A stretch of DNA of 64,000 bases, from contig JAAYPC010000079.1 in the NCBI GenBank assembly GCA_012519985.1, forward strand, positions 62,001 to 126,000, written 5' to 3'. The notes below the pieces were generated by a model. It saw only the letters and a list, made by a program, of their open reading frames with translations. It was not told where the DNA came from and made no database searches. Of this stretch, positions 6,972-28,687 are shown piece by piece (the stretch's first letter is position 1; each line of letters begins with the position of its first letter). The position numbers were made by a program, and so were the translations under genes. This DNA comes from Fibrobacter sp. (lineage in GTDB: Bacteria; Fibrobacterota; Chitinivibrionia; Chitinivibrionales; Chitinispirillaceae).

Positions 6972-7285
6972 GAATTTGGTTTCTTTTCTGAAATCACTAC
7001 TATTCCATAGCTGGTTAATTAAGCTTTTTTGGTGTTCTGAACAGCAATAACGGAGTTCCGAACTGCGTTCACGAAGTTCCAAACAGCGATGACGAACCCG
7101 ACCTTTCGAGTTCTGAACTCGGCATTTGGAGTTTGTGGCTTATAAAGGAGGTGGAAACTGAAGTTCAAAGAGAGCAGAAAAAATGCTGACCTAACTTTGC
7201 CCTTGCTAAGTAAGTATAAGGGAGCGCTTTCAGCGAGGGACCTTACTTGAAAAAGTCTGTAATTCTGAGCGCTTCCGGGAACTAC
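6972..7285. other. Convergent intergenic region with repeats and a hairpin
   Basis: About 310 bases between the converging tamA and obgE genes. It contains the 21-bp-period array at 7034-7130. It also holds a dyad with arms AAGTAAG (7208-7214) and CTTACTT (7242-7248) and a smaller CGCT/AGCG stem inside. No T-run follows on either strand, so it is not a classic intrinsic terminator. No gene is seen. Confidence 0.5.
7034..7130. repeat. Degenerate 21-bp-period array with GTTCnGAAC dyads
   Basis: Units start at 7034, 7055, 7076 and 7110. The first three follow each other every 21 bases and the fourth comes after a 13-base remnant (7097-7109). Each unit begins with a GTTC(C/T)GAAC-like palindrome (third copy GTTCCAAAC) and ends in a purine-rich CGGA, CGAA or TGGA. 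Between these the sequence has diverged. The region is non-coding. Confidence 0.7.
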
Positions 7286-26647: not shown

Positions 26648-27466
26648 TTAAGCATCAAATTCTGACCAGGATGGGTTAATAAACCTTTGATTCTCCGATA
26701 TATTATCAATCATTGAGGACTCCTGGTCGGATAAGGTTATGCTAAGAGCCCCAAGATTGGCAATGATGTGTTCTTCTGAGGAAGATTTGGGAATAACCAC
26801 CAATCCTTTTTTAATCAGCCAGGCAAGAGCGACCTGTCCCGGACCGGTATCTTTATTTTGTCCAATCTTTTGCAGAAGATCACTTTCGAATACTTTCCCT
26901 CGTGCCAGGGGTGAATAGGCTATGATGACAATCTGCTTCTCTTTACAGTATTGATATAACTCTTTCTGGAAAAGAAACGGATGAAACTCGACCTGGTTGA
27001 CTGCTATGGGAAGAACTGTGGATTTAAGAGCTTCTTCAAGGTGATTGATTGTAAAATTGCTGACTCCGATACTTCTGACCAGATGTTCTTCAACAAGTTT
27101 CTCAAATGCCTTGAATGTCTCATTCATGGGAATGAATTTGTTAGGCCAGTGAATTAAAAGCAGGTCCAGATAATCGGTGCGCAACTTTTCCAGAGAACTG
27201 TGGCATTGGTCGATAACATCTTTGAAACGCAATTTCTGATACCACACTTTGGAGGTTAAAAAAAGTTCTTTTCGGTTGATTCCTGAAGTCTGGATTGCCT
27301 GACCGATATCATCTTCATTTTCGTAGGCGTTGGCGGTGTCTATGTGGCGATACCCATTCTCCAGCGCCATTAATACAGAATCAAAGCACTCCCGGCCATT
27401 CATTAACCAGGTCCCTAATCCCATTACCGGAATTGAGTATCCGCTTTTGAGAAGAATCGTTTTCAT
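26648..27466 (-). CDS. Aldo/keto reductase
   Basis: A 272-residue NADPH-dependent oxidoreductase of the AKR superfamily (AKR5-like). The catalytic tetrad can be placed: Asp and Tyr in DTANAYENEDDIG, Lys in LTSKVW and His in LLIHWPN. VMGLGTW near the N-terminus, RSIGVSNF, VNQVEFHPF and IPKSSS near the C-terminus are family signatures. The substrate cannot be inferred; small aldehydes such as methylglyoxal, or 2,5-diketogluconate-type compounds, are usual. I chose the ATG at 27466 (MKTILLKSGY) with AGGTG upstream; the longer frame would start with GTG. It faces the flagellin terminator and appears to be a single gene. Confidence 0.9.
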   Translation of the reverse strand: MKTILLKSGYSIPVMGLGTWLMNGRECFDSVLMALENGYRHIDTANAYENEDDIGQAIQTSGINRKELFLTSKVWYQKLRFKDVIDQCHSSLEKLRTDYLDLLLIHWPNKFIPMNETFKAFEKLVEEHLVRSIGVSNFTINHLEEALKSTVLPIAVNQVEFHPFLFQKELYQYCKEKQIVIIAYSPLARGKVFESDLLQKIGQNKDTGPGQVALAWLIKKGLVVIPKSSSEEHIIANLGALSITLSDQESSMIDNISENQRFINPSWSEFDA

Positions 27467-28036
27467 AAGCACCTGTATTTTATATCAAATGAGTCTGCCC
27501 AGAAATTAACAATTTTTTAGAATGCAAAAAATGAACCTCTTTTTGTCTGAAATTCAGTAGTTTCCGGTTAATTTTACGAAAGATCACTGAATTCCAAATA
27601 AATCAAAAATCACAATATCCAAAATTCCAAAAAAATTCCAAGTTACAATGCTTTAAGTTCCAAACCGGTACAGGAGTAAGAGAATTAGAATGCGAGGATC
27701 GATGAGAAAGTTTCTCTTGTGAATGAGAAAAATTCTTATGTGGAGTAGAAAGTTACTCATGTGGAGTAGAAAATTACTCATGTGGAGTAGAAAATTACTC
27801 ATGTGGAGTAGAAAATTACTCATGTGGAGGAGTAAGTTACTCATGTGGAGTAGAAAATTACTCATGTGGAGGAGTAAGTTACTCATATTGAGTAGAAAAT
27901 TACTCATATTGAGGAGTAATTTACTCATATTGATGAGAAAATTTCTACGGCAGTGGGGTAAATTTCTTCTGTCCCTTGAAATTCGACAGGAACGGGACAC
28001 TACTGTCTGAAACCAATCAATTATCTGAGGGCAAAT
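27467..28036. other. Long intergenic region with a 21-bp palindromic array
   Basis: About 570 bases, very AT-rich on the left and then a tandem array (27701-27952). The long ORFs that cross it on both strands are by-products of the repeat period being divisible by three. I see no other gene. The first 200 bases must contain the promoter of the aldo/keto reductase gene; TATAAA near 27483 (minus strand) is a possible -10 box. Confidence 0.6.
27701..27952. repeat. Twelve 21-bp tandem units, each with an inverted repeat
   Basis: Twelve units follow without spacers. Unit starts are 27701, 27722, 27743, 27764, 27785, 27806, 27827, 27848, 27869, 27890, 27911 and 27932. Three in the middle are identical. 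Most units contain GAGTA-N6-TACTC. Three contain the shifted palindrome GAGTAA-(G/T)-TTACTC (27827, 27869, 27911). The left outermost unit contains GAGAAA-G-TTTCTC. Units end ATGTG on the left and ATATT on the right. Degenerate traces extend a little further on either side. Confidence 0.92.
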
Positions 28037-28687
28037 TTAGAGACTATCTTCCAGAATTCTGATAATCTCCCTGGGATCAGAAATGAGAAAATCTGGCGAG
28101 AATGACTTCAGTAAGTCTTTTGAATTATATCCCCAGGTTACTGCTATGGATTTAACACCCGCTTCTCTTACCGCCTCTATATCCCTGGTTTCATCACCGA
28201 CATAGAACACCATCTGTGGTTGAAGCTTATGGTGTTGAATCACTCGTTTAAGCGCTTTTGACTTGTTCCAGATATGCAAAGAGGAATAGATAAAATCAAA
28301 TTCAGGAAATTTAAAATGCTTGAGGAATGAGCGCACATTTCTTACTGAATTAGAGGTTATAATACCCAGCAGAATCTCTTTCTTTCGTATCTCTTCAATA
28401 GTTTCTTTTATCCCATCAAATGGAACCACATTATTTAGTCCCTCTTTCAGTAACCTTCTGGCTTCCCATACTATAAAGGGAAGCTTTATGCGAGGTATGG
28501 CTAAAAGCTCCATAACTTTATGTGAATCCAGGTTTCTGTATGTTTCCGCCTGATCCGCTTGAATCTGCCTGAATCCGAATTTCTGGGATAATTTATTCAG
28601 TATGCGCAGATAAAAGGAGAAAGTATCTGCAATGGTTCCATCAAAATCAAATATAAGAGTAGCTTTTTTGCCGGTTGAGGTAGTCAT
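28037..28687 (-). CDS. HAD-superfamily phosphatase (phosphoglycolate phosphatase-like)
   Basis: A 216-residue haloacid dehalogenase-type hydrolase. The motifs are visible in order: IFDFDGTIADT (motif I, nucleophile Asp14 and acid Asp16), GIITSN (motif II), and the lysine of KALKRV with FYVGDETRDIEAV (motifs III and IV). A helical cap follows motif I, as in the Gph/PpaX group. It probably removes phosphate from a small metabolite; phosphoglycolate or pyrophosphate are common substrates, but the choice is not readable from sequence. It lies next to the palindromic array and is not obviously part of an operon. Confidence 0.85.
   Translation of the reverse strand: MTTSTGKKATLIFDFDGTIADTFSFYLRILNKLSQKFGFRQIQADQAETYRNLDSHKVMELLAIPRIKLPFIVWEARRLLKEGLNNVVPFDGIKETIEEIRKKEILLGIITSNSVRNVRSFLKHFKFPEFDFIYSSLHIWNKSKALKRVIQHHKLQPQMVFYVGDETRDIEAVREAGVKSIAVTWGYNSKDLLKSFSPDFLISDPREIIRILEDSL

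Follow-up and report, generated by a model that had tools for sequence, protein, structure and literature searches.

REP/BIME-type palindromes are intergenic, dyad-bearing elements biased to gene 3' ends; their units are longer than those considered here, are dispersed with conserved sequence and are transposase associated. Plasmid iterons offer a second comparison: beside repB of the Moraxella osloensis plasmid pNP7-7 lie about 4.6 copies of a 21-bp direct repeat whose units are 100% identical. Closest to the locus analyzed here is a class of bacterial tandem repeats that are non-coding, 20-21 nt long, constant in size and variable in sequence, and found in Bacillus and many other bacterial groups (Subirana and Messeguer, 2021; PMC8161180). 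Several families are described per genome, with no function known, and these satellites abound in some species and are lacking in relatives; it is also pointed out there that 20-21 nt corresponds to two helical turns, and the authors propose small RNAs or a nucleoid protein that polymerises. Satellites of Bacillus coagulans are transcribed (PMC8161180, PMC8625621).

In the window (the whole stretch of 64,000 nucleotides that was analyzed), twelve 21-bp units with the central consensus GAGTAGAAAATTACTCATGTG abut without spacers at positions 27701-27952, with no strand assigned to the array or its parts. CRISPR was ruled out, since no unique spacers separate the units. Type A units (GAGTAGAAAATTACTC; GAGTA-N6-TACTC, dyad centre 8.5) occur four times in near-identical succession at 27743-27826 and again at 27848 and 27890, which makes six of the twelve, i.e. 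half rather than the majority assigned to this motif in an earlier, sequence-only reading of the locus. Three further units, at 27827, 27869 and 27911, are of type B (GAGGAGTAAGTTACTC or similar; GAGTAA-n-TTACTC, dyad centre 10). Their alternation with type A between 27827 and 27931 forms a 42-bp higher-order repeat, because of which the TRF score is slightly higher for period 42 than for period 21. The middle of the array is identical from unit to unit and its edges are diverged, with degenerate units GAGAAAGTTTCTC and GAGAAAAATTCTT at 27701-27742, the outer one carrying GAGAAA-G-TTTCTC, and another degenerate unit followed by GTGGGGT at 27932-27959, where homology to C69:299-557 stops. The dyads of the units at 27722 and 27932 are imperfect. 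The number of units, their contiguity, the three type B motifs, the left outer motif and the equivalence of unit length to two helical turns were all as that reading had given them.

The array lies in a 564-bp gap. A HAD-family hydrolase gene (28037-28687, minus strand) faces it with its 3' end, around 84 bp away, and an aldo/keto reductase gene (26648-27472, minus strand) with its 5' end, around 229 bp away. Gene calls were heuristic, based on a dicodon score, and by this score no gene was called in 27472-28037. A coding repeat was rejected: the open reading frames of the two strands, 95 and 115 aa long, lacked both a Pfam match and a coding score, and the frame that is open in a sister array described below is interrupted by stops in this one. 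No replication or partition gene was found among the neighbours; the earlier reading had likewise seen no replication gene nearby. In the relatives examined with the best matches to either flanking gene, the other flanking gene was not found adjacent. The aldo/keto reductase orthologue of the related genome G016 (67% identical) has an unrelated 21-bp array at its 3' end, and none upstream within the G016 DNA covered.

A single homologous array was found elsewhere in the genome, at C69:299-550, also with 12 units and 70% identical. The alignment of the two ends at GTGGGG right after the last unit, flanks are not shared, and the genes adjoining the C69 array are unrelated to those described above. 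A relaxed pattern search of the genome gave no convincing third copy, and a search of 39 further genomes of the order returned no homologous array. A phage origin was rejected, with no match among phage records or viral contigs. A plasmid origin was likewise rejected: the sole match in plasmid DNA was to the pNP7-7 repeats, through chance similarity. Both are 21-bp direct repeats, but here 12 degenerate units lie among housekeeping genes and without a rep gene.

Arrays of the same period are numerous in this genome. Stretches of the genome totalling 784 kb (about 16.5% of it) were scanned with TRF, and period 21 was the commonest (20 of 65 arrays), with 13 of 65 having period 42 or 43, so that this length and its double dominate. 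These stretches were not a random sample: some were picked from pattern hits, and many start with a contig, a place where assemblies break on repeats. Densities may accordingly be too high. Among the arrays of 21 and 42/43 bp, about 24 are separate and non-coding, mostly unrelated in sequence (e.g. TGGTAAGTCAGAAATTGTTTT, TTCATCTGCACAGGATATCTT and GGGTTTAATTTGAAAGGTTTA), and several families recur at two loci of the genome. One of the unrelated arrays, three copies of GTTCCGAACAGCGATAACGAA with no strand assigned, lies in the window itself at 7034-7096, between convergent gene ends. Arrays of 42 bp were observed at contig ends or a few bases from them (L109:5283-5640, L116:5-400, L196:1-382); satellites therefore probably break the assembly, and a genome-wide count may miss some of them. 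Repeats of 7 bp (GAATATC, GAATAAC) form a further, separate family in intergenic DNA of this genome (L198:5530-5582, L197:10610-10869, L090:1601-1694). In 500 kb sampled from G005, a genome of the same family, 10 of 30 arrays had period 21; a few such arrays were found in the samples of G006 and G016, and none in those of G002, G003, G004, G007, G010 and G025, so that presence is patchy among relatives of one family, as judged from sampled densities. At two G005 loci (L169:3499-4092 and L174:18295-18835), two or three different 21-bp arrays lie side by side, and related arrays with ATGTTCC/GGAACAT in common are present at both.

These data place the locus in the published satellite class, which the sequence-only reading had missed in stating that no known family was matched. 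Like the satellites of PMC8161180, for which at least four copies of regular length served here as the criterion, the array is a non-coding tandem repeat of regular unit length (12 x 21 bp), in a genome that holds several families of equal length and different sequence, with species-specific units and, from samples only, a patchy distribution among relatives. It differs from them in its lineage, in the frequency of 42/43-bp arrays around it and in the dyad of its family. The locus is thus linked to a published and unexplained phenomenon, that of bacterial satellites with length fixed and sequence free.

The earlier reading had taken the dyads, at two-turn spacing, as suited to a dimeric protein or to a row of RNA hairpins, with arms described as changing together and the dyad as kept by selection or a copying process. 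When the 21 columns were permuted jointly, which preserves tandem structure, the dyad was better than chance (p = 0.024 for the window array, 0.005 for the C69 array), a real but modest effect in a genome holding dozens of arrays; its centre is identical in both arrays, which are not independent. The coordinated change of the arms was not borne out. The right arm TTACTC is common to types A and B, while three substitutions recreate the left arm GAGTA 3 bp later in the unit, moving the dyad centre from 8.5 to 10, and the only true T-A to A-T swap between unit types is at pair 7-13. Over the 20 distinct units of the window and C69 arrays, 352 of 500 shuffles had as many pairs changed on both sides at centre 10, and 48 of 500 had an equally high covariation score; values at centre 8.5 were also within shuffles. 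Compensatory change in the dyad was thus not found in the aligned units, and its maintenance by selection is unsupported. In the other arrays of the sample, dyad p-values were unremarkable and most arrays had no dyad. With many 21-bp arrays of unrelated sequence and no dyad, the recurrent property is therefore the period and not the palindrome.

We consider it probable that the array belongs to the 20-21-nt class of non-coding satellites, arose by slippage or unequal exchange and carries its dyad incidentally. Its homogeneous core and decayed edges, higher-order repeat, private sequence and patchy occurrence all point to such an origin, and the unremarkable dyads elsewhere and the lack of covariation above shuffles lend further support, as do the prevalence of the period with mostly unrelated units, the recurrence of several families at two loci and the placement of arrays near gene 3' ends (see below). 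The array would have started by a chance duplication; slipped strands during replication, or unequal recombination, would have enlarged it and evened out its units, and it would have persisted because its location in a spacer makes it nearly harmless. The dyad would most simply have been inherited from the founding unit, possibly sharpened by template switching between the arms, and would not be the feature that maintains the array. Four observations count against this reading: the dyad values and the same centre in both homologous arrays, their having 12 units each, RNA folding beyond the column-permuted control (see below), and a length shared without shared sequence, which neutral copying by itself does not readily explain. 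For the recurrence of 21 bp, either the copying step would favour this length or something reads the period, and a protein reading the two-turn period remains an interesting alternative.

Placement relative to genes was evaluated for 39 non-coding arrays of two genomes, in 32 independent regions; gene calls outside the arrays rested on the dicodon score. Of 52 gene ends facing arrays, 36 were 3' ends, where array-free intergenic DNA predicts 43% (p about 1e-4 in a binomial test that treats ends as independent). Among the 20 regions for which both neighbours could be identified, only one was divergent, against 31% expected (p 0.006). This 3'-end bias, which is not among the features reported in the sections of PMC8161180 consulted, is shared with REP/BIME elements, as are intergenic position and the dyad; the array differs from these in being tandem and essentially private in sequence. 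The placement is compatible either with spacers at transcript ends tolerating repeats or with a role at such ends.

A role of this kind is contemplated in the possible, if unlikely, alternative that 21-bp arrays are scaffolds on which a nucleoid-type protein polymerises along DNA in two-turn register with little sequence demand, so that an array stiffens, bends or insulates DNA close to transcript ends. It would account for units of one length and many sequences across arrays and genomes, the same proposal appears in PMC8161180, and 3' ends, to which the arrays are biased, are places where supercoils can meet. A-tracts per unit were 2.04-fold above the composition-matched expectation in G005, against 1.16-fold in ordinary intergenic DNA, but in G000 the enrichment (1.36) was near that of ordinary intergenic DNA (1.22). 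No protein is known for such a scaffold, occurrence among relatives of one family is patchy, and tolerance predicts the 3' bias equally well. Its broader form, in which bacteria of this family carry around a hundred 21-bp satellites per genome, positioned where transcripts end, and a protein that senses the two-turn period and not the sequence uses them to control supercoiling or nucleoid structure, is speculative and we hold it to be rather doubtful. The 3'-end bias and the existence of satellite-rich and satellite-poor genomes in one family make the puzzle of a fixed length with free sequence testable across related species.

It is improbable that the array acts as a row of RNA hairpins, in transcript stability or as a protein sponge, within the 3' untranslated region of the HAD hydrolase gene, past whose stop codon it begins. 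The bias of the class to gene 3' ends and the transcription of B. coagulans satellites (PMC8625621, PMC8161180) are consistent with this, and on either strand the predicted fold is more stable than in the column-permuted control, matched by only 4 and 2 of 200 permutations. Against dinucleotide shuffles the z-scores are -7.5 and -7.8, but they drop to -2.3 and -3.0 once tandem structure is preserved. Against it, pairs do not covary, dyads are missing from most other arrays, no terminator-like site was found for the array, and a search of Rfam returned no family, only a chance match to mir-384 (E 0.46). A 43-bp family of the same genome, at L101:17180-17380 and L184:5211-5515, carries a long inverted repeat (ACCATTGCACTCCTAGATAAGATGCTAGGAGTATCATGGT) and is a better hairpin candidate.

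Two-turn spacing, dyads, a position upstream of the aldo/keto reductase gene and the pNP7-7 match had pointed to an iteron, a partition site or an operator-like array bound by a dimeric regulator. We hold any of these to be very unlikely, given the neighbours without replication or partition functions, the distance to the reductase start, the unrelated genes near the second copy, the G016 orthologue with its array on the 3' side, the many arrays without a dyad, and the 3' bias and scarcity in divergent regions, which argue against a general operator role. The tempting but probably wrong picture of a covarying operator array is thereby removed.

A degenerate pattern made of two units and the start of a third was also scanned across genome contigs and found in 34 places; because half of the dyad is built into the pattern, these places were not counted as dyad evidence. 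Many of them resemble coding repeats, and some, by eye, non-coding 21-bp arrays (Bacteroidetes, Kapaibacterium, Thermincola and Anaerocolumna). Apparently non-coding arrays of this length, with 8 to 24 units, were seen in unrelated phyla, at L061 and L075 (Bacteroidetes bin55), L071 (Kapaibacterium) and L079 (Thermincola), the last of which has units GAGAAG...CTTCT and GTGAGG...TCAC that suggest arm changes.
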